Positions 11,522 to 50,167 of a stretch of DNA of 64,000 nucleotides are shown piece after piece (the first letter of the stretch is position 1; every line of letters starts with the position of its first letter). The stretch covers positions 1,019,455-1,083,454 of the forward strand of contig NZ_CP149925.1 of assembly GCF_038087665.1 (NCBI RefSeq). The letters run 5' to 3'. The translations under genes and the position numbers were made by a program. A model generated the notes under the pieces. The model was given only the letters and a program-made list of their open reading frames with translations. It ran no database searches and was not told where the DNA came from. The stretch comes from Gallaecimonas sp. GXIMD4217 (GTDB lineage Bacteria > Pseudomonadota > Gammaproteobacteria > Enterobacterales > Gallaecimonadaceae).

Positions 11522-11597
11522 GGGTCGTTAGCTCAGTTGGTAGAGCAGTTGACTTTTAATCAATTGGTCGATGGTTCGAGTCCATCACGACCCACCA
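11522..11597 (+). tRNA. tRNA-Lys (anticodon TTT), copy 1
   Basis: 76 bases including an encoded CCA. The acceptor stem GGGTCGT / ACGACCC is perfect, the anticodon loop CTTTTAA reads TTT, and the T-loop is TTCGAGT. It is the only copy with an obvious promoter directly upstream, and a terminator-like hairpin follows at 11610. Confidence 0.98.
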
Positions 11598-11609
11598 GCA
11601 TTTATAAGA

Positions 11610-11632
11610 GCCTGCTATAGCGGGCTTTTTTG
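11610..11632 (+). terminator. Terminator-like hairpin after tRNA-Lys copy 1
   Basis: GCCTGCT / AGCGGGC (one G-T pair, short loop) is followed by six T residues. If it works, copies 2-6 need read-through or their own promoters. Confidence 0.55.
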
Positions 11633-11691
11633 TCCCCAGGGACAGGCCGCCGGGGCACCTGAAGGGCGCCGGGGCAAAGAAGAATTAAAGT

Positions 11692-11762
11692 GGGTCGGCC
11701 GCTCAGTTGGGTGAGATGCGAGGAAGACGCAGCATCGAACGCGAGTCAGGACGACGAGCCGG
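11692..11762 (+). pseudogene. Degenerate tRNA-Lys-like block 1
   Basis: It begins GGGTCGGCCGCTCAGTTGG, close to the first 19 bases of the intact tRNA-Lys, and keeps a GAGTC and an ACGAC element near the T-arm and acceptor positions. The middle is replaced by a TGCG-AGGAAGA-CGCA stem with a 7-base loop. The acceptor cannot pair properly and no CCA is encoded. The same block recurs four more times between intact tRNAs. Confidence 0.65.
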
Positions 11763-11813
11763 AAGGCGCGCCAGGACGACTGGTACCACCGAAAGACAAT
11801 CGAAGAATTCAGT

Positions 11814-11889
11814 GGGTCGTTAGCTCAGTTGGTAGAGCAGTTGACTTTTAATCAATTGGTCGATGGTTCGAGCCCATCACGACCCACCA
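11814..11889 (+). tRNA. tRNA-Lys (TTT), copy 2
   Basis: Identical to copy 1 except for one T-to-C change at the end of the T-loop (TTCGAGC), which leaves every stem intact. It is preceded by CGAAGAATTCAGT, the block that precedes every later copy. Confidence 0.97.
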
Positions 11890-11955
11890 CTTATTCAGGC
11901 CGCGGGCCATGCCGGAAGGCGGCCAGGATGCTGGCAGACAGTCGAAGAATTCAGT

Positions 11956-12017
11956 GGGTCGGCCGCTCAGTTGGGTGAGATGCGAGGAAGACGCAGCATC
12001 GAACGCGAGTCAGGACG
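11956..12017 (+). pseudogene. Degenerate tRNA-Lys-like block 2
   Basis: Same sequence as block 1 over 62 bases. The following spacer is 25 bases shorter, consistent with a deletion between two CAGGACG direct repeats that flank the missing segment in the other units. Confidence 0.65.
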
Positions 12018-12052
12018 GCTGGTACCACCGAAAGACAACCGAAGAATTCAGT

Positions 12053-12128
12053 GGGTCGTTAGCTCAGTTGGTAGAGCAGTTGACTTTTAATCAATTGGTC
12101 GATGGTTCGAGTCCATCACGACCCACCA
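12053..12128 (+). tRNA. tRNA-Lys (TTT), copy 3
   Basis: 76 bases, identical to copy 1, CCA encoded, preceded by GAAGAATTCAGT. Confidence 0.98.
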
Positions 12129-12183
12129 CTTATTAAGGCCTCAAGGCGCGCCAGGACGCTGGCAGACAATTGAAGAATTCAGT

Positions 12184-12254
12184 GGGTCGGCCGCTCAGTT
12201 GGGTGAGATGCGAGGAAGACGCAGCATCGAACGCGAGTCAGGACGACGAGCCGG
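12184..12254 (+). pseudogene. Degenerate tRNA-Lys-like block 3
   Basis: Same tRNA-like block as at 11692, including the TGCG/CGCA stem and GAGTC element. Confidence 0.65.
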
Positions 12255-12305
12255 AAGGCGCGCCAGGACGGCTGGTACCACCGAAAGAAAATCGAAGAAT
12301 TCAGT

Positions 12306-12381
12306 GGGTCGTTAGCTCAGTTGGTAGAGCAGTTGACTTTTAATCAATTGGTCGATGGTTCGAGTCCATCACGACCCACCA
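12306..12381 (+). tRNA. tRNA-Lys (TTT), copy 4
   Basis: 76 bases, identical to copy 1, CCA encoded, preceded by GAAGAATTCAGT. Confidence 0.98.
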
Positions 12382-12448
12382 CTTATTAAGGCCGCAGGGC
12401 CATGCCGGAAGGCGGCCAGGACGCTGGCAGACAATCGAAGAATTCAGT

Positions 12449-12519
12449 GGATCGGCCGCTCAGTTGGGTGAGATGCGAGGAAGACGCAGCATCGAACGCG
12501 AGTCAGGACGACGAGCCGG
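12449..12519 (+). pseudogene. Degenerate tRNA-Lys-like block 4
   Basis: As the other blocks, but beginning GGATCGG instead of GGGTCGG, a further decay of the acceptor strand. Confidence 0.65.
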
Positions 12520-12570
12520 AAGGCGCGCCAGGACGGCTGGTTCCACCGAAAGAGAATCGAAGAATTCAGT

Positions 12571-12646
12571 GGGTCGTTAGCTCAGTTGGTAGAGCAGTTG
12601 ACTTTTAATCAATTGGTCGATGGTTCGAGTCCATCACGACCCACCA
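12571..12646 (+). tRNA. tRNA-Lys (TTT), copy 5
   Basis: 76 bases, identical to copy 1, CCA encoded, preceded by GAAGAATTCAGT. Copies 4, 5 and 6 are spaced exactly 265 bases apart. Confidence 0.98.
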
Positions 12647-12713
12647 CTTATTAAGGCCGCAGGGCCATGCCGGAAGGCGGCCAGGACGCTGGCAGACAAT
12701 CGAAGCATTCAGT

Positions 12714-12784
12714 GGGTCGGCCGCTCAGTTGGGTGAGATGCGAGGAAGACGCAGCATCGAACGCGAGTCAGGACGACGAGCCGG
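12714..12784 (+). pseudogene. Degenerate tRNA-Lys-like block 5
   Basis: As block 1. The upstream block reads GAAGCATTCAGT here, a change shared with the unit before tRNA copy 6, which suggests recent homogenisation of neighbouring units. Confidence 0.65.
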
Positions 12785-12835
12785 AAGGCGCGCCAGGACG
12801 GCTGGCACCACCAAAAGACAATCGAAGCATTCAGT

Positions 12836-12911
12836 GGGTCGTTAGCTCAGTTGGTAGAGCAGTTGACTTTTAATCAATTGGTCGATGGTTCGAGTCCATC
12901 ACGACCCACCA
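12836..12911 (+). tRNA. tRNA-Lys (TTT), copy 6
   Basis: 76 bases, identical to copy 1, CCA encoded. It is followed after 10 bases by a strong terminator. Confidence 0.98.
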
Positions 12912-13012: not shown

Positions 13013-14077
13013 ATGACAGATATGCCCCAGGTAGTAGATATCGATTACCCCTTCCCGCCCAAGCCGGCCCCCCTCAGCGAGGCCGAAAAGGCGGACTACA
13101 AGGCCAAAATCAAGCAGCTCCTGAAAGAACAGGATGCGGTGCTGGTGGCCCATTACTACACGGATCCGGAGATCCAGGCCCTGGCCGAAGAGACCGGTGG
13201 CTGTGTATCCGACTCCCTGGAAATGGCCCGTTTCGGCAAGGAACACCCCGCCAAGACGCTGATCGTGGCCGGCGTGCGCTTCATGGGCGAAACCGCCAAG
13301 ATCCTCAGCCAGGAAAAACGGGTGCTGATGCCGACCCTGGAGGCCACCTGTTCACTGGACCTGGGCTGCCCGGCCAAGGAGTTCAGTGCCTTCTGCGACG
13401 CTCACCCGGACCACACCGTGGTCGTCTACGCCAACACCTCCACCGCCGTGAAGGCCCGGGCCGACTGGGTGGTGACCTCCAGCATCGCCCTGGAAATCGT
13501 CGAGCACCTGGACAGCGAAGGTCACAAGATCATCTGGGGCCCGGACCGTCACTTGGGCTCCTATATCGCCAAGGAAACCGGCGCCGACATGATCCTCTGG
13601 CAGGGCGCCTGCATCGTCCACGACGAGTTCAAGGCCAAGGCCCTGCGTGACCTCAAGGCCGTGTACCCGGACGCCGCCGTGCTGGTACACCCGGAAAGCC
13701 CGGCCAGCATCGTCGAGATGGCCGATGCCGTCGGCTCCACCAGCCAGCTGATCAAGGCGGCCCAGGATCTGCCCAACAAGCAGCTGATCGTGGCCACCGA
13801 CAGGGGTATCTTCTACAAGATGCAGCAGCTGTGCCCGGACAAGGAGTTCATCGAGGCGCCCACCGCCGGCAACGGCGCCACCTGCCGCAGCTGCGCCCAT
13901 TGCCCCTGGATGGCCATGAACGGTCTCAAGTCCATCCATGATGCCCTCACCGCCGAGGACAAGAGCCCCCACGAGATCTTCGTGGACGAGGCCCTGGGCG
14001 AGAAGGCGATGGTGCCGCTGAACCGCATGCTGGACTTCGCCAAGAGCCTCAACATGAAGGCCAAGGGCAACGCCTGA
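13013..14077 (+). CDS. nadA: Quinolinate synthase A
   Basis: A 354-residue [4Fe-4S] enzyme that condenses iminoaspartate with dihydroxyacetone phosphate to quinolinate in NAD synthesis. The three cluster Cys are expected in the [21 protein letters not shown] and [12 protein letters not shown] segments. The early HYYTDPEIQ segment is typical of the family. ATG 13013 is preceded by only a weak ribosome site (GGTGACGTT). nadA after the tol-pal/tRNA-Lys cluster is a conserved gammaproteobacterial arrangement. It has its own promoter and terminator. Confidence 0.97.
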
Positions 14078-14094
14078 GGGTACGTAAGAGTAGG

Positions 14095-14121
14095 AAAAGC
14101 CGCCATTTAGGCGGCTTTTTC
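14095..14121 (+). terminator. Terminator of nadA
   Basis: AAAGCCGCC / GGCGGCTTT with a 5-base loop and a T run. Confidence 0.85.
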
Positions 14122-14171
14122 GTCTCTTTGTCTAAAAGCTCGCCGAACGATACTTTTTCTCTAAAAAGCGG

Positions 14172-14200
14172 TTGACCGGGCGGCGGCCATTACCTAATAT
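14172..14200 (+). promoter_or_regulatory. Sigma-70 promoter of tRNA-Ser
   Basis: TTGACC (14172-14177) and TAATAT (14195-14200) with a 17-base spacer, followed by a GC-rich discriminator (AGCGCCCCG). Confidence 0.75.
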
Positions 14201-14255
14201 AGCGCCCCGTCGACAGGGGAAAGCAAGCGCAGAACGCTGGCGACGAAATAATTTG

Positions 14256-14342
14256 GTGAGGTGTCCGAGTGGCTGAAGGAGCACGCCTGGAAAGTGTGTA
14301 TACGGCAACGTATCGAGGGTTCGAATCCCTCCCTCACCGCCA
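14256..14342 (+). tRNA. tRNA-Ser (anticodon GGA)
   Basis: 87 bases with encoded CCA. The acceptor GGTGAGG / CCTCACC is perfect, the anticodon loop CTGGAAA reads GGA, a long class II variable arm is present (TGTGTATACGGCAACGTATC region) and the T-loop is TTCGAAT. Confidence 0.97.
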
Positions 14343-14351
14343 TATTGAAGC

Positions 14352-14379
14352 TAGAAAGCCCGCTGAAAAGCAGGCTTTC
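14352..14379 (+). terminator. Hairpin after tRNA-Ser
   Basis: AGAAAGCC / GGCTTTCT inverted repeat (one internal mismatch) with a GAAAA loop. No T run follows, so it may be a processing or weak termination signal. Confidence 0.45.
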
Positions 14380-14396
14380 TGCTATCTGGCGTCCGG

Positions 14397-14483
14397 TTGC
14401 AAGCGTCCGACTCGGCCGTAGGAGCCTCGCGCTCGGCTGCACGCAAGCCGCGCTTGCGTTTCGAGCCTCGCCCCTCACCGCCA
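14397..14483 (+). pseudogene. Degenerate tRNA-Ser copy
   Basis: The last 12 bases, CCCTCACCGCCA, equal the 3' end of the intact tRNA-Ser. GTCCGACTCGGCCGTAGGAGC aligns with the intact D-arm region and TTCGAGCC with the T-loop. Its total length of 87 bases equals the intact gene. The 5' acceptor strand (TTGCAAG) cannot pair with the 3' strand, and no Ser anticodon arm remains. Confidence 0.65.
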
Positions 14484-14491
14484 TATAAAAG

Positions 14492-14530
14492 AAAAAGCCC
14501 CGCTCAATCGAGCGGGGCTTTTTCTTTTTT
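14492..14530 (+). terminator. Strong terminator downstream of the tRNA-Ser region
   Basis: AAAAAGCCCCGCTC / GAGCGGGGCTTTTT with loop AATC, followed by CTTTTTTTCC. The symmetric A and T tracts would also allow function on the minus strand. Confidence 0.85.
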
Positions 14531-14569
14531 TCCGGTTTGGGAAGACTTGGTTCGAAGCCTTGGGTTCGA

Positions 14570-14640
14570 CAAAGCGGCAGGATAGCCGCTTTGCACAGCC
14601 AACGGCTGCCCAAAGGGCGAACGCCAGGGATGGCGCGAGT
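14570..14640. repeat. Dispersed hairpin-rich element
   Basis: Contains CAAAGCGGC-aggata-GCCGCTTTG (9-bp perfect stem), GCCC-aaa-GGGC, and AGGGCGAA-CGCC-AGGGAT-GGCG-CGAGT. The last has the same conserved loop and flanks as the hairpins at 3097 and 3214 but different stem bases. No gene is seen between 14531 and 14721. Confidence 0.55.
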
Positions 14641-14721
14641 GGATCCCTCCCGAAGGCCCGCTTATATGTGGCCGTTTTCTAACATGGGGATACAGGTGCC
14701 TGGTGTTGCTGATGGCCGCAC

Positions 14722-15201
14722 TTAACTGCACCCTTCCAATGCCAACAACGCCTCCTTGCGCCACAGGCCGCCGGCATAGCCGGTGAGCTTGCCGCTGGCA
14801 CCCAGCACCCGGTGGCAGGGCACTATGACCGATAGCGGGTTGCGGCCGTTGGCGGCGGCCACGGCCCGCACCGCGCTGGGGCGGCCCAGTGCTTCGGCCA
14901 GCGCCTTGTAGCTGTACGTGTGGCCGAAGGGAATGGCCCTGAGCCCGGCCCAGACCTGCTGCTGAAAGTCGGTGCCCTTGGGGGCCAGTGGCAGCTCGAA
15001 GTCGCGGCGATGACCGGCGAAGTACTCGGTCAGTTGGCGCCGGGCTTCCAGCAGCACCCAATGCTTGCTGCCGTCGTGCCAGGCCGGGCTTCGGCCAGGG
15101 TGGTGCATCTGGCCGTCGAAATAGGCGGCCGTCAGGGCCGACCCGTTTGCCACCAGCAGCAGCTGGCCCAGCGGGGTCTTCATTTCCAGGCAATGGTTCA
15201 T
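14722..15201 (-). CDS. ogt: Methylated-DNA--protein-cysteine S-methyltransferase
   Basis: A 159-residue O6-alkylguanine/O4-alkylthymine repair protein that transfers the alkyl group to its own Cys and is used once. The active-site segment is VIVPCHRV. ATG at 15201 was chosen because it has an AAGGAG ribosome site 7 bases upstream; a longer reading to 15270 overlaps the upstream gene and lacks one. It lies 11 bases after the ada-alkA stop, so the two form an alkylation-repair operon. Confidence 0.93.
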   Translation of the reverse strand: MNHCLEMKTPLGQLLLVANGSALTAAYFDGQMHHPGRSPAWHDGSKHWVLLEARRQLTEYFAGHRRDFELPLAPKGTDFQQQVWAGLRAIPFGHTYSYKALAEALGRPSAVRAVAAANGRNPLSVIVPCHRVLGASGKLTGYAGGLWRKEALLALEGCS

Positions 15202-15212
15202 GGCTGTCTCCT

Positions 15213-16625
15213 TCAGGGCTGCTTCTGCGCCAGGCTGCGCCACAGGTGCATGACGGCGTACGAGCGCCACGGGCGCCAGGGCTCGGCCAAGGCCTGCAGC
15301 CGTTTCCCGTTCGTTTCGCCCAGGGCCTTCTTGACGCCGTGATCGGCCGTCAGGAAGCGATCAGGGCAGCCCAGGGCGCGCATGGCGATATAGTCGGCCG
15401 TCCAGGGGCCTATGCCCGGTAACGCCAGCAGCCTGTCGACCTGAGCGTCCACGTCCTGGCCCGGTTTCAATACCAGCTCGCCGTCGGCCACGGCCCTGGC
15501 CAGCGCCAAGATGGCCCTTGAGCGGCTGGCCAGGATCCCGAGCCGGCCAAGCTGATCCTGGCTTGCCTGCGCCATCCTTTCCGGTGACGGGAAGCTGTAG
15601 GCCAGTTCCTCGAAAGGCGTTTTCAACGGCTCGCCCAAGGCCGTGACGAGGCGGCCGGCCAGGGTATGGGCCGCCTTGACGGTGACCTGCTGGCCGAGGA
15701 TGGCGCGCACGGCCATTTCGAAGCCGTCAAAGGTGCCGGGCAGGCGCAGGCCGGGGGCTCCGGTCGCCAGCTTGCCAAGCGCCGAGGCCACCTCGTCCGG
15801 CCGGCACCAGAGATCGAAGCAATGCCTGGCCCCGGCCACGAGCTGGGGCAGCACGGGCGCCAACGACTGGCTGATGCTGAGGGTGATGGCATTCCCGGCG
15901 CTGCTTGCCTCCAGCCAGCCGCTGTGTTCGCCAAGTTGCAGCGTGCGGCGATAGTGGCCGCCCGTTATGGACTCGACGCCGCGGATCAGCCGCTGCGACA
16001 AAAAGGCCAGCAGCGCCGGCCAGTCGAGCGGCGGCACGAAGGGCAGCGTCAAGGTGATGGGGCTGTCACCGGCCGATTTGCCCTTGCGCAGCTCGGTCGG
16101 GGCCAGGCGGTAGCGTTCCTTGAAGAGGTGGTTGAAGCGGCTGAGGCTCTGGAAGCCGGCCGTCATGGCAATGGTGGCAACGGGCAGCGCCGTGTCGGTG
16201 AGCAGTCGCTTCGCAAGCAGCAGCCGCTGGGTCTGGAGATAGCGGACCGGGGTCGTGCCAAGCTCCTGCTCGAAGACCCGCCGCAAATGCCGGTCGGAGA
16301 CGCCGAGTTCGCTCGCAAGCGCTGCCAGGCTGCCGTCATGGCCGGATTCGAGGCGCTGCAAGGTGGCGCGGACGAGCCTGTCCTTGGCGTCTATGGGGGC
16401 GAGGCCGGGGGCAAGCTCGGGCCGGCAGCGCAGGCAGGGCCGAAAGCCGGCGTCTTCGGCGGCAGCGGCGGAGGAAAAGAAGCGGCAGTTCTCGGGCTTA
16501 GGCGTCTTGGCCGTGCAGACGGGCCGGCAATAGATGCCGGTGGTGACGACGCCGACGAAGAGACGGCCGTCATAGCGGGCATCATTGCTGGTGATGATGG
16601 GGTAGCAGGTGCTGGTTTCCAACAT
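15213..16625 (-). CDS. alkA: Ada-type regulator fused to 3-methyladenine DNA glycosylase II (AlkA)
   Basis: 470 residues from ATG 16625, which has AGGAG 6 bases upstream; ATG 16643 is possible but lacks a good site. Domains: an Ada zinc-binding methyl acceptor (about residues 5-75, Cys pairs in YCRPVC and CLRC), an AraC-type helix-turn-helix (about 80-180), AlkA_N (about 190-300), and an HhH-GPD glycosylase (about 305-460, LPGIGPWTADYIAMRALG with catalytic Asp in DRFLTADHG). The protein should sense methyl phosphotriesters, activate transcription and excise N3-methyladenine. It is co-oriented with ogt. The fusion is known in other bacteria. Confidence 0.92.
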   Translation of the reverse strand: MLETSTCYPIITSNDARYDGRLFVGVVTTGIYCRPVCTAKTPKPENCRFFSSAAAAEDAGFRPCLRCRPELAPGLAPIDAKDRLVRATLQRLESGHDGSLAALASELGVSDRHLRRVFEQELGTTPVRYLQTQRLLLAKRLLTDTALPVATIAMTAGFQSLSRFNHLFKERYRLAPTELRKGKSAGDSPITLTLPFVPPLDWPALLAFLSQRLIRGVESITGGHYRRTLQLGEHSGWLEASSAGNAITLSISQSLAPVLPQLVAGARHCFDLWCRPDEVASALGKLATGAPGLRLPGTFDGFEMAVRAILGQQVTVKAAHTLAGRLVTALGEPLKTPFEELAYSFPSPERMAQASQDQLGRLGILASRSRAILALARAVADGELVLKPGQDVDAQVDRLLALPGIGPWTADYIAMRALGCPDRFLTADHGVKKALGETNGKRLQALAEPWRPWRSYAVMHLWRSLAQKQP

Positions 16626-16699
16626 GGGGGCTCCTGTGTTCATGGAGCCATCATAGGCCGTGGGGGCGGCGAAAGCTTGCCGTTTTCGGACCTGGATTT

Positions 16700-17353
16700 T
16701 CAGATGAAGTCGCAGGGGGCCGAGAAGGTCATCCGCTTGCCGCTGTAGGGGTGGTGAATGCTGAGGTCGGCGGCATGGAGCAGGAGCCGGGGCGAGGCGG
16801 CAAGGGCGTCTCCCGTGGCATAGAAGCGGTCGCCAAGGATGGGGTGGCCAAGCTCAAGCATGTGGACCCGGAGCTGGTGAGAGCGGCCGGTGATGGGAAT
16901 GAGCTCGACAAGGGATGAGTGAGCGTCTTCGGACAGGACGTGGTAATGGGTCTGGGACGGCTTGCCGTTTTCAAGGCAGACCATCTGCTTCGGCCGGTTC
17001 GGCCAGTCGCAGATCAGCGGCAGATCGACCGTGCCTTCCTTTTTCTCTAAGTGACCCCAGACCCTGGCCAGGTACCGCTTCGCCGTTTCCCGCTCCCGGA
17101 ACTGGCGCTTGAGCTCCCGCTCGGCGTCCTTGCGCAGCGCCAGCACCATGATGCCGGACGTATCCATGTCGAGGCGATGGACGACATGGGAGCCGGGATG
17201 CCGCTCCAGGACCCGGGCCCAGACGCTGTCCCTGTGGGCCGGATCCCGGCCCGGCACCGACAGCAGGCCGCTTGGCTTGTTGACGACGAGGATGTCCTTG
17301 TCTTCATGAAGGATGTCCAGCCAGGGGCTTTGGGGCGGTTGGTATTGGAACAT
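16700..17353 (-). CDS. rluA: RluA-family RNA pseudouridine synthase
   Basis: 217 residues from ATG 17353, close to the 219 of E. coli RluA, which modifies 23S rRNA U746 and tRNA U32. Motif HRLDMDTSGIMVLAL carries the catalytic Asp. No S4 domain is present, as expected for RluA rather than RluC/D. The later RSHQLRVHMLELGHPILGDRFY segment is family-typical. The start was chosen over 17410 because the extra N-terminus is unlike the family. Confidence 0.9.
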   Translation of the reverse strand: MFQYQPPQSPWLDILHEDKDILVVNKPSGLLSVPGRDPAHRDSVWARVLERHPGSHVVHRLDMDTSGIMVLALRKDAERELKRQFRERETAKRYLARVWGHLEKKEGTVDLPLICDWPNRPKQMVCLENGKPSQTHYHVLSEDAHSSLVELIPITGRSHQLRVHMLELGHPILGDRFYATGDALAASPRLLLHAADLSIHHPYSGKRMTFSAPCDFI

Positions 17354-17498
17354 GGCGCACTTTCTCTCAAGCGGGGCGCTAAAGATACCGCAACGGCGCG
17401 TCCCGCGCATCCACCTTGCCCTTCGACAAAGCCTTGACTAGACATGAATGTGACCCCGTTGTCTCGGGCCAATTCCCTTCCATTTCGGAGACAGACCC

Positions 17499-17963
17499 AT
17501 GTCAGTGAACAAGGATAAGATTGTTAAAGGTGTGCAGGGCGCCGCCCTGGCCATGGCCGCTGCGGCGCTGTTCAGCTCGCCGGCCCTGGCCGGCGGCGAC
17601 AAGCACGGCAAGAGCGCCTCCCACGAGGTGCATTGCTATGGCGTCAACGCCTGCAAGGGCCACAACGACTGCAAGGGCGCAGACAACGCCTGTGCCGGCC
17701 AGGCGTCCTGCAAGGGCACCGGCTTCGTCACCATGTCCGCCAAGGCCTGCAAGGATGTTGGCGGCAAGAAGAAGGACGACTGGCGCGGCAAGGTCGACAA
17801 GGCCGATCTCGTCAAATGCCACGGCGTCAACGCCTGCAAGGGCCACAACGACTGCAAGACCGCCAAGAACGCCTGTGGTGGCCATGCTTCCTGCAAGGGC
17901 ACCGGTTTCGTGAAGATGTCGGCCAAGGCCTGCAAGGACATTGGAGGCGAGGTTGGCGAATAA
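17499..17963 (+). CDS. bufA2: BufA2-type bufferin metallophore precursor with duplicated Cys module
   Basis: 154 residues starting at ATG 17499 with GGAG 8 bases upstream. A Sec signal peptide (residues 1 to about 31, ending ALA) directs it to the periplasm. The mature part holds two copies of a Cys-rich module: Cys46, 52, 58, 65, 71, 84 and Cys107, 113, 119, 126, 132, 145, offset by 61 residues and joined by a charged linker KKKDDWRGKVDKADL. Bufferins are precursors whose Cys are modified by an MNIO enzyme to give copper-binding groups. MNIO and DUF2063 genes follow directly. A two-module mature peptide appears longer than usual for the family. Confidence 0.88.
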   Translation: MSVNKDKIVKGVQGAALAMAAAALFSSPALAGGDKHGKSASHEVHCYGVNACKGHNDCKGADNACAGQASCKGTGFVTMSAKACKDVGGKKKDDWRGKVDKADLVKCHGVNACKGHNDCKTAKNACGGHASCKGTGFVKMSAKACKDIGGEVGE

Positions 17964-18816
17964 GCACGCCGGGCCCGCAGCAGCGGGCCTTTTGTCACAG
18001 CCCCTGGGCTTCGGCCTGGGGCTCAGATCCGATCATTACCAGGACGTGCTCGACCAGGAGCCCAAGGTGGACTGGTTCGAGATCATCTCCGAAAACTTCA
18101 TGGTGGCCGGCGGCAAGCCCCGGTATTACCTGGATGCCGTCGCCGAACGCTATCCCATCGTCATGCACGGGGTGTCGCTGTCCATCGGCTCCGTCGAGCC
18201 CCTGGACTGGGATTACCTGCACGCCCTCAAGGCGTTGGCCGACCACGTCCAGCCGGCCTGGCTTTCCGATCACCTCTGTTTCACTTCCGTCCATGGCGTC
18301 AACAGCCATGATCTGCTGCCGCTGCCCTATACCCGGGAGGCCGTTCACCATGTGGCCGGACGGGTCCGGCAGATCCAGGATTTCCTGGGCCGGCGCATCC
18401 TGCTGGAAAATGTCTCCAGCTACCTGAGCTACAAGGACGCCGAGATGAGCGAGTGGGATTTCGTCAACGCCGTCGCCGCCGAGGCCGACTGCCTGCTGTT
18501 GCTCGACGTCAACAACATCCATGTCAGTGCCGTCAATCATGGCTTCGACGCCCTGGAATACCTCCAGGCGATGGATCCGGGCCGGGTGCAGCAGTTCCAC
18601 CTGGCCGGCCACAGCAACCAGGGCGACCATCTGATCGACACCCACGACCAGCCGGTGCCGGATCCGGTCTGGGAGCTGTACCGCCACGCCATGGCCCGCT
18701 TCGGCCCGGTCAGCACCTTGCTGGAACGGGACGAGCATATTCCGCCCCTGGCCGAGCTGGTGATGGAGCTGGACAAGGCCAGGCAACTGGCCGCCACTGT
18801 GCGGGGAGCGGCCTGA
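17953..18816 (+). CDS. bufB2: MNIO (DUF692) multinuclear iron oxidase, bufferin modification enzyme
   Basis: About 287 residues if it starts at TTG 17953, which has GGAGG 6 bases upstream and overlaps the bufA2 stop; TTG 17941 and 17992 are alternatives and no ATG fits. The protein is a TIM-barrel DUF692 enzyme. Expected metal ligands lie in HGVSLSIGS (His72), [40 protein letters not shown] and LLERDEHIPP. MNIOs use two or three irons and O2 to modify Cys in RiPP precursors. The terminator-like hairpin at 17972 lies inside this frame. It overlaps bufC2 by one base. Confidence 0.92.
   Translation: MANKHAGPAAAGLLSQPLGFGLGLRSDHYQDVLDQEPKVDWFEIISENFMVAGGKPRYYLDAVAERYPIVMHGVSLSIGSVEPLDWDYLHALKALADHVQPAWLSDHLCFTSVHGVNSHDLLPLPYTREAVHHVAGRVRQIQDFLGRRILLENVSSYLSYKDAEMSEWDFVNAVAAEADCLLLLDVNNIHVSAVNHGFDALEYLQAMDPGRVQQFHLAGHSNQGDHLIDTHDQPVPDPVWELYRHAMARFGPVSTLLERDEHIPPLAELVMELDKARQLAATVRGAA
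17972..17993 (+). terminator. Internal terminator/attenuator between bufA2 and bufB2
   Basis: GGCCCGC-agca-GCGGGCC followed by TTTT, 9 bases after the bufA2 stop. It probably lets most transcripts end after the precursor gene, with partial read-through to the enzyme genes. Confidence 0.55.
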
Positions 18817-19592
18817 TGGCACTGGCCGAACTGCAAGGCGCCTTCCTCGCCGCCCTGAAGGGGGAGCCGGATGCGCTGCTGGCCCAAGTGGCCGAGCAGG
18901 GCCCCCTGGCCCCCGCAGACAGGATTGCCATCTACGGCAATGCCTATCGCCTGCGCCTGGCCGCCGTTTTGGAGACCGATCACCCCATGTTGGCGCTGTA
19001 CCTGGGGGATGAGGCCTTCGGCGAGCTCTGTGAGGGCTATATCGACCACCACCCCTCCCGCCACAAGTCGCTGCGTCATTTCGGCGAGGCGCTGCCGGCC
19101 TACCTGGTCGAACAGGCGCCCTTTGCCGAGCATCCGCAACTGGCCGAGCTGGCCCGTTTTGAACGCCTGCTGCTGGATGCCTTCGACGGCGCCGATGGGG
19201 CCAGGGCGGCACCGGGCTGCCTGGCCGAGCTGGCACCGGAGCACTGGCCAGGGCTCAGGCTGGATTTCCATCCCTGCGTCAGGGTCTTTGAAACACGCTG
19301 CAACGCGGTGCCCATCTGGCAGGCATTGAAGGCGGACGAAATGCCACCGCCGCCGCTGCTGGCACCGGGCCGCTGGCTCATCTGGCGCAGCCGGGACAGG
19401 CTGACCGAGTTTCGGCATCTGGATGAGGACGAAGCCCTGTTGCTGCGGCTGTTGTTGGTCGAGGGGGTGATCTTGGCCGAGGCCTGCGAGGGCCTGGCCG
19501 AGACGCTGCCGGCCGAGCAGATCCCCAGACTGTTGCAAAGCAGCCTGGGGCGCTGGCTCGAGGACGGCATCATCACCGTCCTGCGGCGCTAG
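18816..19592 (+). CDS. bufC2: DUF2063 protein, MNIO partner of the bufferin system
   Basis: 258 residues. The ATG overlaps the bufB2 stop by one base (TGATG), so the two are translationally coupled. The N-terminal DUF2063 region (about residues 1-95) shows the family segments DRIAIYGNAYRLRL and HHPSRHKSLRHFGEALPAYL. In characterised systems this protein forms a complex with the MNIO and helps it bind the precursor. No DoxX-type fourth gene or sigma factor follows. Confidence 0.88.
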   Translation: MALAELQGAFLAALKGEPDALLAQVAEQGPLAPADRIAIYGNAYRLRLAAVLETDHPMLALYLGDEAFGELCEGYIDHHPSRHKSLRHFGEALPAYLVEQAPFAEHPQLAELARFERLLLDAFDGADGARAAPGCLAELAPEHWPGLRLDFHPCVRVFETRCNAVPIWQALKADEMPPPPLLAPGRWLIWRSRDRLTEFRHLDEDEALLLRLLLVEGVILAEACEGLAETLPAEQIPRLLQSSLGRWLEDGIITVLRR

Positions 19593-19601
19593 CCGGCATA
19601 C

Positions 19602-19624
19602 AAAAAAGCCCCCTGGCGGGGGCT
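19602..19624 (-). terminator. Terminator of norZ
   Basis: On the minus strand AGCCCCC / GGGGGCT is followed by T6. It lies between the convergent bufC2 and norZ genes. Confidence 0.75.
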
Positions 19625-19646
19625 AAAGGTCTTCTCGGGTAGAAAC

Positions 19647-21905
19647 TCAGTAGGCGTTGGCCGGCAGCGGGGCCTTCTGGCCGAAGCCCTGCAGGCGCCA
19701 GGCGAACAGCGCCAGCAGCAGGCCGCCCCAGGCGAACAGCACGTCGCCCGGCACCCTCAGCCACACCAGGGTGTGGATGATGTCCTGGTGCAGGAACTCG
19801 GGGCTGCGGGCCGCCCAGTAGCTGACGTCCACGGCTTCGAAGAACTGCAGGAAGCCAACCGGGGCCAGGGACATGAAGCACATGGCGGCCAGGCCGATGT
19901 TCAGGCTCCAGAAGGTCCACTTCAGGATGTTGTCGTTCCAGAAGCGGTTCTCGCTCATGCCGCGCAGGCAGAACAGCAGCAGGCCGATACCCAGCAGGCC
20001 GTACACCCCGAACATGGCGGCGTGGCCGTGCAGCGGCGTGGTGTTCAGGCCCTGCACATAGTAGAGGCTGATGGGCGGGTTGATGAGGAAGCCAAGCAGG
20101 CCGGCACCAACCAGGTTCCAGAAGGCACAGCCGATGAAGAACATGATCGGCCAGCGGTACTTCTCGACCCAGGGCGCGGCCTTGCCGAGACGATAGCTCT
20201 CGTAGGCCTCGAAGCCGATCAGGGCCAGGGGCACCACTTCCAGGGCACTGAACACGGCGCCCCAGGCGATGAAGGACACGGGGGCACCGGTGAAGTAGAG
20301 GTGGTGCAATGTGCCGAGGATGCCGCCGGTCAGGAAGATGGCGGTGGCGAAGATGACCTGGGCATTGGCGGTAGCGGCGCGGATCAGGCCCATGCGGGTG
20401 AACAGCAAGGCGATGACGGCGGTGGCAAAGACCTCGAAGAAGCCTTCAACCCAGAGGTGCACCACCCACCAGCGCCAGTACTCGGCCAGGGCGATGTGGG
20501 TGTGGCGACCCATCATCAGGCCGGCGGCGTACATCAGGCCGATGGCGATGGTGGACAGGAACAGGATCCACATCACCGGCTTGTATTCGCTTTCGCCTTT
20601 CAGGGCCGGAGACAGGGCGCGGGTGACCAGGGCCAGCCAGATCAGCAGGCCGGCGAACAGCAGGATCTGCCAGAAGCGACCCAGATCCACGAACTCGTAG
20701 CCCTGGTGGCCGAACCAGAAGTTTTCACCCAGGGTGAACACCTGCTGTACGCCCAGCCATTCGCCGGCCATGGAGCCGACCACCACCAGTACCAGTGCCA
20801 CATAGAGCACGTTGACCAGCAGTGCCTGGAACTTGGGTTCCTTGCCGGACAGGGCCGGGGCTATGTAGAGGCCGGTACCGAGCCAGGCGGTGGCGACCCA
20901 GAACACGGCCAACTGGGTGTGCCAGGTGCGCACCACTGAGTAGGGCAGGATGTCGGACAGCTGGATGCCGTAGAAGGCCTGACCTTCCACCGCGTAGTGG
21001 GCGGTGATGCCGCCAAGCAGGATCTGGCCGAGGAACAGGGCGATCACCGTCCAGAAGTACTTCTTGGTGGCCTTCATGGAGGGGGTGATGACCATGGCGT
21101 CCAGGGGATCCTGGTCGGGGGCCTTGAGCTCATGCTCGTCCTTGGTGCGGGCATGGTGCCAGGCCAGCACGCCGATGCCGGCGATCAGGAACAGCACGGA
21201 GATCAGCGACCAGCCCAGCAGGTTGCCCTGGGGGGTGTTGCCCACCAGCGGCTCGTGGGGCCAGTTGTTGGTGTAGCTGACATCTTCGCCGGGCCTGTTG
21301 GTCACGGTTGACCAGGCAGTCCAGAAGAAGAAGCCGGCCATGGCCTGGCGATGCTCCTGGTTCGGGATGGGATTTTCCTTGATGGCGTAATCCTCGCGAA
21401 CAGGTTGCATGGCCGGATCGTCGCTGAACAGGCGGTCGTAGTAGTCGACCAGTTCGGCGAAGGCCCTGGCCCGGGCTTCATCGACGATGATGGCGTCCTG
21501 GCGGGCGTCATAGGTGTTGGTGCGGACCTTCTCCTGCAGCTGGGCACGGAGCATGGCCTGGGTGGCATTGGGCGCCAGCTCGTAGTTCTCGAAGCCCTGG
21601 GTCACGGCCAGCTGATCCAGGATCAGCAGCGCTTCCCGGTGCAGCCAGTCGGCGGACCAGTCCGGCGCCACATAGGAGCCGTGGCCCCAGATGGAGCCTT
21701 GTTGATGGCCGCCCATGGAGCGCCAGGCGTCCTGGCCACGCTCGATGTCGGCCTTGGTGAGGAGGACCTCACCGGATTGGGTGATCACCTTGGCGGGGAT
21801 GGGCGGTGCTGCACGGTACAGCTGTCCTCCCAAGAGCCCCAGCACGGTGAAGGAAACGCTGAACACCAAAAATAGTGCCAGCCAGAGTCTTTTTTCCTTG
21901 CTCAT
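19647..21905 (-). CDS. norZ: Quinol-dependent nitric oxide reductase (qNOR)
   Basis: A 752-residue inner-membrane heme-copper oxidase family enzyme that reduces 2 NO to N2O with electrons from quinol. The N-terminal helix and the long periplasmic region (about residues 30-220, cytochrome-c-like fold without heme motif) are the qNOR-specific extension. About twelve further membrane helices carry the conserved His ligands (for example VVRTWHTQLAVFWVATAW, HLWVEGFFEVFAT, HHLYFTGAP, HGHAAMFGVYG). It is divergent from nirK with FNR/DNR-like boxes between them, so it should detoxify NO made by NirK. Confidence 0.95.
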   Translation of the reverse strand: MSKEKRLWLALFLVFSVSFTVLGLLGGQLYRAAPPIPAKVITQSGEVLLTKADIERGQDAWRSMGGHQQGSIWGHGSYVAPDWSADWLHREALLILDQLAVTQGFENYELAPNATQAMLRAQLQEKVRTNTYDARQDAIIVDEARARAFAELVDYYDRLFSDDPAMQPVREDYAIKENPIPNQEHRQAMAGFFFWTAWSTVTNRPGEDVSYTNNWPHEPLVGNTPQGNLLGWSLISVLFLIAGIGVLAWHHARTKDEHELKAPDQDPLDAMVITPSMKATKKYFWTVIALFLGQILLGGITAHYAVEGQAFYGIQLSDILPYSVVRTWHTQLAVFWVATAWLGTGLYIAPALSGKEPKFQALLVNVLYVALVLVVVGSMAGEWLGVQQVFTLGENFWFGHQGYEFVDLGRFWQILLFAGLLIWLALVTRALSPALKGESEYKPVMWILFLSTIAIGLMYAAGLMMGRHTHIALAEYWRWWVVHLWVEGFFEVFATAVIALLFTRMGLIRAATANAQVIFATAIFLTGGILGTLHHLYFTGAPVSFIAWGAVFSALEVVPLALIGFEAYESYRLGKAAPWVEKYRWPIMFFIGCAFWNLVGAGLLGFLINPPISLYYVQGLNTTPLHGHAAMFGVYGLLGIGLLLFCLRGMSENRFWNDNILKWTFWSLNIGLAAMCFMSLAPVGFLQFFEAVDVSYWAARSPEFLHQDIIHTLVWLRVPGDVLFAWGGLLLALFAWRLQGFGQKAPLPANAY

Positions 21906-21953
21906 GACATGCTCCCACAGCGGGTTGGTTATTGTGGTATCGAATATGTCACA

Positions 21954-21994
21954 AATATACAGGTATGCGTAATGCTACTTTTGATCTCGATCAT
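21954..21994 (-). promoter_or_regulatory. FNR/DNR-type box and -10 for norZ
   Basis: TTGATCTCGATCAT (21981-21994) matches the FNR/DNR palindrome TTGAT-N4-ATCAA at 9 of 10 positions. On the minus strand a TATATT hexamer (21959-21954) is centred 31 bases from the box centre, close to the spacing of class II FNR-activated promoters (box at -41.5). Confidence 0.65.
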
Positions 21995-22053
21995 AGGGTG
22001 CTGAGGAAATTGAAATTTCCACAATAAAATACCGGGTAATCCTCGCCCGAAAG

Positions 22054-22094
22054 TTGACCCAAGTCAGTGTTATAAGGAGGGAGCTGTCTAGACT
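22054..22094 (+). promoter_or_regulatory. FNR/DNR-type box and -10 for nirK
   Basis: TTGACCCAAGTCAG (22054-22067) is a weaker FNR/DNR-like palindrome. A TAGACT hexamer (22089-22094) is centred 31 bases downstream, the same geometry as on the norZ side. A TATAAG at 22071 is too close to the box to fit activation. Confidence 0.5.
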
Positions 22095-22130
22095 GGAGGC
22101 GTCAAGTATCCATAAGAAAGGGAGCGTCCC

Positions 22131-23555
22131 ATGAAAGTTAGAAGTGTCGTTGCTGCCGTTGCCATGAGCCTGAGCTTTGGTGCCCTGGCCAAGAGCCTGC
22201 CGGTTGAAGAAGCCATACTGACAGCGCCGCCCATGGTGCCACCGCCGATCAGCCGTGACCATGCCGCCAAGGTGGTAGTGCGGATGGAAACGGTGGAGAA
22301 GGTCATGAAGATGACCGACGGGGTCGAGTACATGTACTGGACCTTCGGCGGCTCCGTGCCGGGCAGCTTTATCCGGGTCAGGGAAGGGGACGAGATCGAA
22401 TTCCACCTCTCCAACCACCCCAGCTCCAAGATGCCCCATAACATCGACCTGCATGCGGTCACAGGTCCGGGTGGCGGCGCCGCCTCCTCCTTCACCGCCC
22501 CGGGTCACACCTCCACCTTCAGCTTCAAGGCCCTCAACCCCGGCCTCTATGTCTACCACTGCGCCACCGCGCCTGTGGGCATGCACATCGCCAACGGCAT
22601 GTACGGCCTGATCCTGGTCGAGCCCGAGGAAGGCCTGCCCAAGGTCGACCGCGAGTACTACGTGATGCAGGGCGACTTCTATACCAAGGGTGAATACGGC
22701 GAAGCCGGCCTGCAGCCCTTCGACATGGAAAAGGCCATCAACGAGGATGCTGACTACGTGGTCTTCAACGGCTCTGTGGGCGCCATGACCGGCGACAACG
22801 CCCTGACCGCCAAGGTTGGCGACAGCGTTCGCCTCTACGTGGGTAACGGCGGCCCCAACCTGGTCTCCTCCTTCCATGTCATCGGCGAGATCTTCGACAA
22901 GGTCTATGTGGAAGGCGGCGATACAATCAACCGCAACGTCCAGACCACCCTGGTGCCGGCCGGCGGCAGCGCCATCACCGAGTTCAAGCTGGACGTGCCC
23001 GGCAACTTCATCATGGTCGACCACTCCATCTTCCGCGCCTTCAACAAGGGCGCCCTGGGCATGATCAAGGTGGACGGCAAGGAGGACAAGGTCGTCTATT
23101 CCGGCAAACAGGCCGATACCGTCTACCTGCCGGAAGGCTCCGCCATCCAGGATGTGGACGGCGAAGCGCCCAAGCCGGTCACCGCCAAGAGCAAGGAGGA
23201 GCAGATCCGCTTCGGCCAGCGCGTCTACGAGGCCAACTGCCAGGCCTGCCACCAGGGTAATGGCCAGGGCATCCCGGCTGCCTTCCCGCCCGTGGCCGGC
23301 TCTGACTTCCTGAACGCAGACCACCAGCGTGCCATCGACGTGGTGCTGCACGGCCTGTCCGGCCCCATCAAGGTCAACGGCAACGCCTTCGACAGCGTCA
23401 TGCCGGCCATGCGCCTGTCCGACGAGGACGCCGCCAACGTGCTGACCTTCCTGCTCAACAGCTGGGACAACAAGGGCGGCAAGGTGACCCCGGCCCAGGT
23501 GGCCGAGCGCCGTAAGAACGGCAAGCCGGTCAAGTTCGACGGCAGCGTGCACTGA
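22131..23555 (+). CDS. nirK: Copper nitrite reductase NirK with C-terminal cytochrome c domain
   Basis: A 474-residue periplasmic enzyme reducing nitrite to NO. A signal peptide ends near residue 20 (ALA). Two cupredoxin domains follow: His103, Asp106 and His108 in HNIDLHA, then His143-Cys144 with His152 and Met157 in [15 protein letters not shown], supply type 1 and type 2 copper ligands and the catalytic Asp. After about residue 345 a fused class I cytochrome c domain carries CQACH (Cys370-His374), a built-in electron donor. It overlaps nirV by one base. Such tethered NirK forms are known in several proteobacteria. Confidence 0.95.
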
Positions 23556-24325
23556 TGCTGACGGCACTGGTATTGGCGGCCAGCGCCGCCATCACCAACC
23601 AGGGCGGGGACATGGTGTCCCTGCCCGCCGGCCTCTATCGGCCGCTGTATCTCAGCAAGGACAGTCCCCTTGTCCAGGTGGCGCCCTTCCAGCTGGACAG
23701 AACTCCGGTCACCAACAGGGACTTCCTGGCCTTTGTGTCCGCCAACCCCAAGTGGGCGCCGGCGCGGATCCCCGGCCTCTTTGCCGAGAACGGCTACCTC
23801 AGCCACTGGAGCGGCGGCCGGCCCAGGACCGTGGAGCTGGACAGCCCGGTGACCCGGGTATCCTGGTTCGCCGCCCAGGCCTATTGTCGGGCCCAGGGCA
23901 AGCGCCTGCCCAGGGTGGCGGAATGGGAATTCGCGGCCCGGGCATCACAAAGCCGTGCCGACGGCAGCAGCGAGCCTGGCTATAACCAGCGCATCCTCAG
24001 CTGGTATGCCAGGCCCAATGCCAAGGTGTTGCCGGCCGTGGCCCAGAGCGCCCCCAACTTCTGGGGCCTGCACGACATGCATGGGCTGATCTGGGAATGG
24101 ACCGAGGACTTCAACTCGGCCCTGGTCAGCGGCGAATCCCGGGCCGACAGCAGCCTCAACACCAACCTGTTCTGCGGCAGCGGTGCCGCCGGGGCGGCCG
24201 ACCCCAGCGACTACGCCGCCTTCATGCGATTCGGTTATCGCGCCAGCCTCAAGGCGCGCTTCACTCAGGAAAACCTGGGCTTCCGTTGTGCCCGGGATGG
24301 AGATATTACGGATGAAAACCCTTAA
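23555..24325 (+). CDS. nirV: NirV-like formylglycine-generating-enzyme family protein
   Basis: A 256-residue SUMF1/FGE-sulfatase-fold protein with a putative signal peptide (LTALVLAASAAI). Family blocks include LDRTPVTNRDFLAFV, RVSWFAAQAYCRAQGKRLPRVAEWEFAAR, HGLIWEWTEDF and a C-terminal GFRCARD. NirV proteins lie next to nirK in several denitrifiers; their role is unclear and maturation or assembly has been suggested. The ATG overlaps the nirK stop, and its 3' end overlaps the Sco gene by 14 bases. Confidence 0.88.
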   Translation: MLTALVLAASAAITNQGGDMVSLPAGLYRPLYLSKDSPLVQVAPFQLDRTPVTNRDFLAFVSANPKWAPARIPGLFAENGYLSHWSGGRPRTVELDSPVTRVSWFAAQAYCRAQGKRLPRVAEWEFAARASQSRADGSSEPGYNQRILSWYARPNAKVLPAVAQSAPNFWGLHDMHGLIWEWTEDFNSALVSGESRADSSLNTNLFCGSGAAGAADPSDYAAFMRFGYRASLKARFTQENLGFRCARDGDITDENP

Positions 24326-24863
24326 GACACTGGCCCTGGCCGCCATGCTGGCCAGCGGATTGGCCCAGGCCAAGCTGCCGGACGACTCCCTCTACCAGCT
24401 GGACAGCCATTGGCAGAACCAGGATGCCGGCCACTTCATGTTGCCGGCCCTGCAAGGCAAAAAGCAGGTGGTGGGCATGATCTACACCCACTGTCTGCAC
24501 ACCTGCCCGATGATCGTGGCCAACATGCAGTCGGTGCAGAAGGCGCTGCCCGAGGGCGAGCGCGACAAGGTGGGCTTTGTGCTGGTGTCCCTGACCCCGG
24601 ACAGCGACACCCCCAAGGTGCTCAAGGATTTCGCCAACAAGCGCGGCCTGGGCGAGGACTGGACCCTGCTGACCGGCACCGAGAGCGACGTGCGGGCCCT
24701 GGCCCTGGCCCTGAATATCCAATACAAGGCCACCATGGACGGTGAGGTCGCCCATTCCAACGCCGTGTCGGTGCTGGATGAGCAGGGCCGGCTGCTGTTC
24801 CAGGAAGTGGGCCTGCCACAAGGGGCCAAGGCCATGGCCGAGCGGGTCCTCAAGGGCGAATAA
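24312..24863 (+). CDS. SCO1/SenC-family copper chaperone
   Basis: 183 residues from ATG 24312 (GGAG about 11 bases upstream). A signal peptide ends near residue 20 (AQA). The thioredoxin-like fold has the copper-binding CxxxC (Cys61, Cys65 in HCLHTCP) and the conserved His148 (VAHSN). Sco proteins deliver copper to cytochrome oxidase; as the last gene of a nirK-nirV operon this one is likely to metallate or redox-maintain NirK, which is inference from position. Confidence 0.92.
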   Translation: MKTLKTLALAAMLASGLAQAKLPDDSLYQLDSHWQNQDAGHFMLPALQGKKQVVGMIYTHCLHTCPMIVANMQSVQKALPEGERDKVGFVLVSLTPDSDTPKVLKDFANKRGLGEDWTLLTGTESDVRALALALNIQYKATMDGEVAHSNAVSVLDEQGRLLFQEVGLPQGAKAMAERVLKGE

Positions 24864-24871
24864 GGGGGCGC

Positions 24872-25297
24872 TCAGTTGTCGCCCTGCATCTTCAACCAGT
24901 AGCTGACCACCCGCTGCTGGTAGTTTTCCTTATGGCGGGGGGTGTGGGAGTGGTAACGGCCCACCGCCTCCCAGATATCGCCATTGGTGGCGATCAGGTG
25001 GCCCTTGAGCAGCCGGGCCGCTACATGGACATTGGTGCAGGTGTCCCAGGCCAGGCTCTGCCAGGTCAACTTGGGGTAATGCTGCTGCATGCTTGGCAGG
25101 TGGATGCTGTTGATCTGCGCCACCCCCAGATCGAAGGTGCCGTTGCTGTTCTTGCGCACCAGTCCCTTCTTGCCCCCCTCCGCCTTGATGATGGCCTTGA
25201 GCAATGAGCTGGCCAGCTGGAAATCCAGCGCCGCCTTGGCGACACAGACGTTGAGTTCCTGCTGGGGAACGACTTGGGGTGGTGGCAGCTCGGTCAT
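24872..25297 (-). CDS. Lytic transglycosylase-like SLT-domain protein
   Basis: 141 residues. The goose-lysozyme/SLT fold is shown by the catalytic Glu40 in KAIIKAEGG and the GVAQIN motif at about 58-63, then WDTCTNVHVAARLLKGHL and VGRYHSHTP near the C-terminus. The architecture resembles small IagB/TrbN-type transglycosylases. No clear signal peptide is seen, so either the true start lies upstream or export uses another route. It is convergent with the Sco gene and divergent from the 4.5S RNA gene. Confidence 0.8.
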   Translation of the reverse strand: MTELPPPQVVPQQELNVCVAKAALDFQLASSLLKAIIKAEGGKKGLVRKNSNGTFDLGVAQINSIHLPSMQQHYPKLTWQSLAWDTCTNVHVAARLLKGHLIATNGDIWEAVGRYHSHTPRHKENYQQRVVSYWLKMQGDN

Positions 25298-25397
25298 TTC
25301 GTTATTGGCATCAGGACTTTAGCTAAAGTGTAGCCGGCCGGTGCCGGGCCGCAAAAGGGCCGGCTGCCTGCTTTATAGGCAAACGCGCCGACTTTCC

Positions 25398-25426
25398 TTG
25401 CTGCCCGGGGGGGCATTATGGATAAT
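25398..25426 (+). promoter_or_regulatory. Sigma-70 promoter of the 4.5S RNA gene
   Basis: TTGCTG (25398-25403) and GATAAT (25421-25426) with an exact 17-base spacer. The RNA begins about 8 bases after the -10. Confidence 0.7.
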
Positions 25427-25433
25427 GTGCCTC

Positions 25434-25543
25434 GGCGACCTCCCTGGTCCCCCCGCAACGATACTTTGTGAACCCGGTCAGGTCCGGAAGGAAGCAGCCG
25501 CAGCAAAGGACTCGTGTGCCGGGGTGTGGCTGGGGAGGGAGCC
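25434..25543 (+). ncRNA. ffs: 4.5S RNA of the signal recognition particle
   Basis: It contains the invariant Ffh-binding region GGTCAGGTCCGGAAGGAAGC with the GGAA tetraloop and the opposing AGCAGCC / GTGTGCCGGG segments as in E. coli 4.5S RNA. The 5' GGCGACCTCCCTGG and 3' GGCTGGGGAGGGAGCC ends can pair to form the long hairpin. The ends are estimated from pairing and may be off by a few bases. The particle targets membrane proteins cotranslationally. Confidence 0.95.
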
Positions 25544-25618
25544 ATCTCCTTGTAGTTCCTTCCTCTGTCCATTAGCCTTCTCCTGTTACAGCCTCTTAAC
25601 GAACAGGAAAAGCAGTCC

Positions 25619-49265: not shown

Positions 49266-49283
49266 GGGCCAGCGCTGGTAAGG

Positions 49284-49314
49284 AAAACGAGCGGACCCAG
49301 GTCCGCTCGTTTTG
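49284..49314 (+). terminator. Terminator between bufA1 and bufB1
   Basis: AAAACGAGCGGACC-ca-GGTCCGCTCGTTTT, a perfect 14-bp stem with T4, 18 bases after the precursor stop and just before the enzyme gene's ribosome site. The enzyme genes have no separate promoter I can see, so partial read-through is likely. Confidence 0.8.
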
Positions 49315-49329
49315 TCTCAAGGAGTCTCT

Positions 49330-50166: not shown

Positions 50167-50167
50167 G

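Follow-up and report, generated by a model that had tools for sequence, protein, structure and literature searches.

The bufA2 gene of Gallaecimonas sp. GXIMD4217 encodes a small precursor in which a block of six cysteines occurs twice. Does this doubling set the operon apart from known bufferins, how did it arise, and what might two modules on one chain do? We addressed these questions in a window of 64,000 nucleotides (contig NZ_CP149925.1, positions 1,019,455 to 1,083,454) and in related genomes.

A Buf2 operon with a duplicated precursor

The operon and its parts lie on the forward strand at the following positions of the window:

17499..17963, +: bufA2, precursor of 154 residues with an export signal and two 6-Cys modules (NCBIfam NF050166)
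17499..17591, +: likely N-terminal export signal, residues 1-31, ending in SSPALA before GG; no lipobox Cys; cleavage site placed by eye
17634..17750, +: module 1, Cys46-Cys84
17751..17816, +: linker of 22 residues, KDVGGKKKDDWRGKVDKADLVK
17817..17933, +: module 2, Cys107-Cys145
17943..17947, +: GGAGG, from its sequence a likely ribosome-binding site for the bufB start at 17953
17953..18816, +: bufB, MNIO maturase (NF050167, PF05114); start TTG 17953, with GGAGG ahead and overlapping bufA2, or the alternative TTG 17992
17971..17993, +: stem-loop GGGCCCGC-AGCA-GCGGGCCT and short T run, lying after the bufA2 stop and ahead of the conserved BufB start
18816..19592, +: bufC, DUF2063 partner protein (PF09836)

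The first-pass annotation had proposed a BufA2-type RiPP precursor followed by MNIO and DUF2063 genes, and profile searches agreed, with all three products above cut-off. BufA2 matched NF050166 in two stretches (143.1 bits, cut-off 60), BufB scored 385.8 bits with NF050167 (cut-off 310) and 386.5 bits with PF05114 (MbnB_TglH_ChrH), and BufC scored 67 bits with PF09836 (cut-off 27.2). The bufC product did not reach the HvfC profile NF050145 (46.1 versus 142 bits), and its C-terminal match to PF22106 (NGO1945_C), which would correspond to the RRE-type part of the partner protein, remained below the cut-off (22.7 versus 27). The order bufA-bufB-bufC with an MNIO maturase is that of Buf2 operons. 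A pattern scan found no sigma-70-like promoter.

BufA2 contains twelve cysteines, at positions 46/52/58/65/71/84 and 107/113/119/126/132/145. The spacing 5-5-6-5-12 thus occurs twice with an offset of 61 residues, and in 100,000 shuffles of the core residues the set of five spacings never recurred in the second half. The modules are identical at 33 of 39 residues, and at the DNA level they form a 135-nt direct repeat (17634-17768 and 17817-17951, spacing 183 nt) of 85% identity. The internal duplication and the charged linker between the modules, both claimed from the sequence at the outset, are therefore real. The modules had also been called complete. All six cysteines are indeed present in each, but the Cys-Lys motif is not: Lys follows Cys2, Cys3, Cys5 and Cys6 in both modules, whereas Cys4 is followed by Ala in module 1 and Gly in module 2, so that three of the four Cys-Lys pairs at Cys2-Cys5 are found per module (all four being a family pattern, not a curated criterion).

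The N-terminus resembles a Sec-type signal peptide by eye, and pattern scans found no lipobox in the window protein. The AlphaFold model of BufA2 was weak (mean pLDDT 64.6), so structural claims on the Cys loops are withheld. A PDB sequence search with a profile of 54 proteins gave no match up to E 1.

Distribution of the two-module layout

In PMC12452194 (Antoine et al. 2025), 90% of Buf2 precursors are reported to contain 6 Cys and the remaining ~10% to contain 12, and one 12-Cys precursor was modelled as duplicated domains. In the literature examined, two-module bufferins amount to that one percentage and that one model. A search by title and abstract opening, with most subscription papers outside its reach, found no paper on the evolution of two-module bufferins, and the words hairpin, terminator, concerted, gene conversion and denitrif- do not occur in PMC12452194.

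We counted modules in three overlapping genome samples (G000 and G010 are common to all three). In the order to which the window species belongs, the BufA2 profile exceeded its cut-off in 29 of 394 genomes, and 24 of the 29 had two modules in one frame. The class sample yielded 67 of 369 genomes, two of them clearly two-module; two further genomes (G736, G746) had split partial matches in one frame. In the phylum sample, 26 of 398 genomes were positive and four were two-module. All clear two-module cases in the class and phylum samples came from the same order. The Cys pattern agreed with the module count in 29/29 order genomes and 26/26 phylum genomes; in the class sample it covered 32 of 67 genomes (L119-L148 together with G000 and G010), the remainder being counted from the HMM table. 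The idea that a double module is a rarity thus fails within the order, where the layout is ordinary, and the published ~10% also speaks against it; in the wider samples two-module members are a minority (2/67 and 4/26). An alternative to the fused module pair is seen in some one-module genomes (L140, L164, L167-L169), where two separate bufA2 genes lie side by side.

When named genomes were searched with the window protein, 80 of 167 loci were kept. The Cys pattern classed 79 of these as two-module, with members in Shewanella, Amphritea, Marinobacterium, Cognaticolwellia, Motilimonas, Marinicella and others; as the query was itself a two-module protein, these 80 loci yield no frequency. The set of two-module ORFs defined by Cys pattern comprised 103 members, 80 of them distinct. 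A bufB gene follows in 102 and a bufC gene in 101 of the 103. Two two-module precursors (L116 and L080) had no bufB or bufC match in the flanking stretch examined. L080 has an extra Cys in module 1, which breaks the search pattern and places it outside the 103; it was counted as one-module in the module-match, first lipobox and bufB/bufC counts, and omitted from the stricter lipobox, Cys4 and stem-loop counts.

It had also been observed that no DoxX-type and no sigma factor gene adjoins the operon. This is correct, the flanks being rluA upstream and norZ downstream, both on the opposite strand. The supposed significance of the gap is lost, however. Sigma and anti-sigma genes are reported with Buf1 and not with Buf2 clusters (PMC12452194). 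DoxX was found at just 10 of 79 two-module loci (flanks up to 3.5 kb, some shorter), so its absence is the usual state. The DoxX scan relied on a profile derived from a single DoxX protein and its relatives, and Pfam confirmed four of the ten, those that were tested. Flanks of about 1.5 kb were too short for the purpose, which excluded the one-module loci and 24 of the two-module loci.

The published 12-Cys example is Cognaticolwellia aestuarii WP_077285100 (PMC12452194); the C. aestuarii two-module locus in our set, L087, is not equated with it here. L087 has a lipobox and DoxX, and the window locus has neither. With the 12-Cys Buf2 bufferins, the window operon shares two 6-Cys domains, the bufABC order and the lack of a sigma factor; it differs by Ala/Gly in place of Lys after Cys4, a short bufA-bufB gap and norZ/nirK alongside. 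Two-module Buf2 is hence a published layout, common in related genomes, and the window operon is a clear member of this class. The patterns described below merit a short comparative study, not the claim of a new system.

Proposed function

The best overall explanation, to which we assign a probability of about 0.8, is a Buf2 ('12Cys') bufferin operon whose product would be modified by BufB and BufC, exported, and sequester copper, with its modules held at fixed spacing. BufA2 would be made with a Sec-type signal, and in the cytoplasm BufB, together with the DUF2063 protein BufC, would oxidize selected cysteines to thiooxazoles, most likely those in Cys-Lys pairs such as Cys2, Cys3 and Cys5 of each module. 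The modified peptide would then be exported and bind periplasmic copper, with two modules per chain. For the window operon, the thiooxazole chemistry, the export and the copper role are drawn by analogy: bufferin chemistry and role are published, and the characterized bufferins act with copper (PMC12452194).

Origin and apparent coupled change of the two modules

For 78 distinct two-module proteins, we asked which module of other proteins matched the N module best. N modules won in 67 cases and C modules in 3, the other 8 being ties, which rules out a recent duplication in the window species alone. In only 4 of the 78 proteins was the own C module a better match than the best N module elsewhere. 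Module starts lie 61 residues apart in 100 of the 103 two-module ORFs, and the linker has 22 residues in 102. In 54 aligned proteins, linker residue L104 is invariant, and D93 and W95 are conserved in at least 90%.

A quick BufB tree of 134 rows placed all 81 partners of two-module precursors in a single branch (99% SH-aLRT) that also includes 9 one-module rows. When the 81 were held monophyletic, in a test that left out two long rows, the constraint was not rejected (p-AU 0.776) and the likelihood was above that of the free search. These patterns fit a single old duplication that would have been inherited together with its BufB maturase. A module may later have been lost, or bufB transferred on its own.

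The two modules of one protein resemble each other more than modules paired at random. In 25 proteins thinned from the 78 (two of the 80 distinct proteins had been dropped earlier for other spacing), the within-protein agreement at variable positions was 18.96, against a mean of 16.77 in 2000 random re-pairings (sd 0.27, maximum 17.64), a comparison that ignores relatedness, so that the spread is too narrow and the significance overstated. The agreement stems mostly from positions 17, 19, 21, 23, 25 and 29, around Cys4 and Cys5, with some contribution of positions 2 and 6; positions 33-38 show no excess. In the same 25 proteins, identical residues were encoded by identical codons more often than codon use predicts, with 193 of 317 versus 151.7 expected between Cys3 and Cys5, 163 of 282 versus 151.6 between Cys1 and Cys3, and 128 of 231 versus 110.7 in the C-terminal part. 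The two copies appear to have undergone concerted evolution, and the simplest reading of the codon data would be homogenization at the DNA level by gene conversion.

What the pairing does for the peptide can be read in two ways. It may be plain dosage, two independent modules doubling the sites per translated chain without any interaction, and we regard the odds of this as only slightly short of even. Retention of all six cysteines in both modules of 78/78 proteins is as expected for dosage, although the set was selected by that pattern, and so is the existence of one-module relatives with the same maturase family. For independent beads, however, a fixed linker length and coupling within the protein would be superfluous. 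These are the observations that would be explained if the modules were one co-operating unit, in which the conserved linker defined a fixed pair of metal sites, or a single shared one, and in which the modules were kept alike by gene conversion or by fit to the same BufB and BufC. The constant linker and its conserved residues, an agreement above all 2000 re-pairings that is concentrated at positions 17-29 and missing from 33-38, and the codon excess between Cys3 and Cys5 all point this way. On the other hand, linker conservation could serve export or folding only, the re-pairing test neglects kinship, the own C module seldom wins over foreign N modules, and a site model at the pLDDT obtained is unreliable. 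We therefore hold the co-operating unit to be a serious contender with roughly a one-in-three standing, behind dosage. Two-module proteins offer direct tests of how an MNIO enzyme acts on a tandem substrate and of whether two metal sites on one chain co-operate.

The residue after Cys4 and the lipobox

One-module BufA2 proteins (NF050166), among which we take Caulobacter bufferin 2 to belong, have the module spacing and the maturase family in common with the window operon. Unlike the window protein, they have a single module and a Lys after Cys4, the latter in 60 of 61 distinct proteins; 46 of the 61 have Cys-Lys at all four of Cys2-Cys5. Two-module proteins have this Lys less often, in 30 of 78 N modules and 18 of 78 C modules, with mainly Ala or Gly in the others, and the residue after Cys4 agrees between the two modules in 56 of the 78 (these counts, like those for DoxX, were not thinned for similarity). 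We predict that Cys4 is treated differently in the two-module subfamily, which would mean fewer thiooxazoles per module than in one-module Buf2.

In PMC13097082, BufA2 is labelled a Cys-Lys substrate, and the Lys-Cys enzyme FonBC leaves the motifs NACKG and HNDCK unprocessed while the motif LVHCY is modified once. The last result shows that a following Lys is not required by every such enzyme. Since the 5-mer LVHCY fits the Cys1 site in many two-module proteins, the Cys-Lys rule for the modified cysteines is not secure.

A more far-reaching proposal would make the 12-Cys bufferins a distinct subfamily, derived from one old duplication, with modules kept alike by gene conversion in Cys3-Cys5 and fixed in spacing, and with Cys4 freed from the Cys-Lys pattern in both modules at once. 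Each chain would then form not two one-module sites but a paired metal site with a different make-up, such as three modified Cys and one free thiol per module. Taken as a whole, we consider this proposal rather unlikely.

Two-module precursors also differ in their signals. Of the distinct precursors, 52 of 82 with two modules and 4 of 61 with one module match a lipobox pattern (Fisher p 6e-13), as judged by a regular expression rather than a signal predictor and with related sequences that are not independent. After thinning at 80% identity the counts were 30 of 42 and 3 of 46; a first, looser pattern had given 51 of 83 and 4 of 62. At the site where a lipobox such as LMGC is found in many relatives, the window protein reads LFSS and should therefore be soluble. 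Predicted lipoprotein signals are reported for ~16% of Buf2 (PMC12452194), and lipidated bufferins are mentioned in PMC12636315.

The bufA-bufB gap

In the window, the gap is short, with 52 nt up to the GxGLR codon, and contains the stem-loop at 17971-17993, with eight pairs followed by 4 T. A generic terminator scan did not report this stem-loop on the + strand, and its role is uncertain because the T run is short. The gap contains a stem of at least eight pairs at 45 of 82 loci with two modules and at 35 of 52 with one, compared with 2.4 and 5.7 in dinucleotide shuffles; a stem plus T run was found in 17 of 82 and 11 of 52, with 0.8 and 1.2 expected. It is a fair guess that across the family the element is an attenuator or 3'-end stabilizer that yields more precursor than enzyme. 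In the window, judging from the anatomy alone, it could let bufA2 expression exceed that of bufBC.

The norZ-nirK-sco neighbourhood

The genes around the operon are:

upstream of bufA2, opposite strand: rluA
19647..21905, -: norZ-type nitric oxide reductase (PF22085, PF00115), part of a species-specific block
22131..23555, +: nirK, copper nitrite reductase with C-terminal cytochrome c (TIGR02376, 376.5 bits, cut-off 296.3; PF00034)
23555..24325, +: FGE-sulfatase domain protein (PF03781, 121.3 bits), by position presumably nirV
24312..24863, +: SCO1/SenC copper chaperone-like protein (PF02630, 70.4 bits)
24887..25291, -: transglycosylase-SLT-like gene at the far edge of the block (coordinates of the match)

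The operon is part of a 7.5-kb block (17411-24886) with norZ, nirK, the FGE-domain gene and the SCO-type gene, between rluA and the SLT gene, which are direct neighbours in all four congeners examined. Beyond the SLT gene (PF01464), the congeners have a tryptophan 2,3-dioxygenase gene (PF03301), and the same genes are found in the window. BufA2 and norZ had no match in the four congener genomes, each of which carries a single MNIO gene of a different kind, with 46-49% identity to BufB. Joint gain of the block at one site is the simplest reading, but the congeners may instead have lost it. Within 17200-25700, no direct or inverted repeats of at least 20 nt bound the block, and G+C shows no clear break (0.59-0.69 per kb over 14000-24000), so that no mechanism of gain was seen.

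Judging by position, the peptide might shield NirK, the copper enzyme encoded nearby, or provide it with copper. That its main role is to serve periplasmic NirK in this way, and not general copper defence, would suit a block placed between genes that adjoin in 4/4 congeners, and the lack of BufA2 and norZ matches in these. Still, joint absence may reflect loss, the neighbourhood may be chance, and the flanks of the other two-module loci gave no norZ, nirK or SCO match; a nirK query gave matches of ~29% at two one-module loci only. Recurrent linkage with norZ/nirK is thus ruled out within the flanks examined, and we judge a dedicated NirK role improbable. Handling of a metal other than copper, suggested by bufferin domains fused to MerC in mercury-related clusters (PMC12452194), is more improbable still, given the copper activity of the bufferins characterized there and the copper-linked nature of the nearest metal genes in the window.

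Other MNIO loci and a tRNA array

The window contains a second MNIO operon (48696-50917) of the HvfABC/EGKCG oxazolin type. It resembles bufA2BC in having a repeat-bearing Cys precursor, an MNIO enzyme and a DUF2063 partner, and differs by an HvfA-type precursor with 16 EGKCG motifs, in which Lys precedes Cys instead of following it, and by HvfB and HvfC products above their cut-offs (439 and 298 bits). A third MNIO locus, of Buf1/DUF2282 type (L002), lies in the same genome (G000:C1, about 890 kb). It shares with the window operon an MNIO over the BufB cut-off, a Cys-bearing precursor and an N-terminal hydrophobic signal, and is set apart by a PF10048 precursor and a sigma-70-type gene, the frame of which overlaps the end of the partner-protein frame. 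One 3.35-Mb genome thus contains three bufferin-like types. Elsewhere in the window, six tRNA-Lys(ttt) genes lie at 11522-12911, five identical and one with one base changed, separated by long, mutually similar spacers of 163-216 nt.
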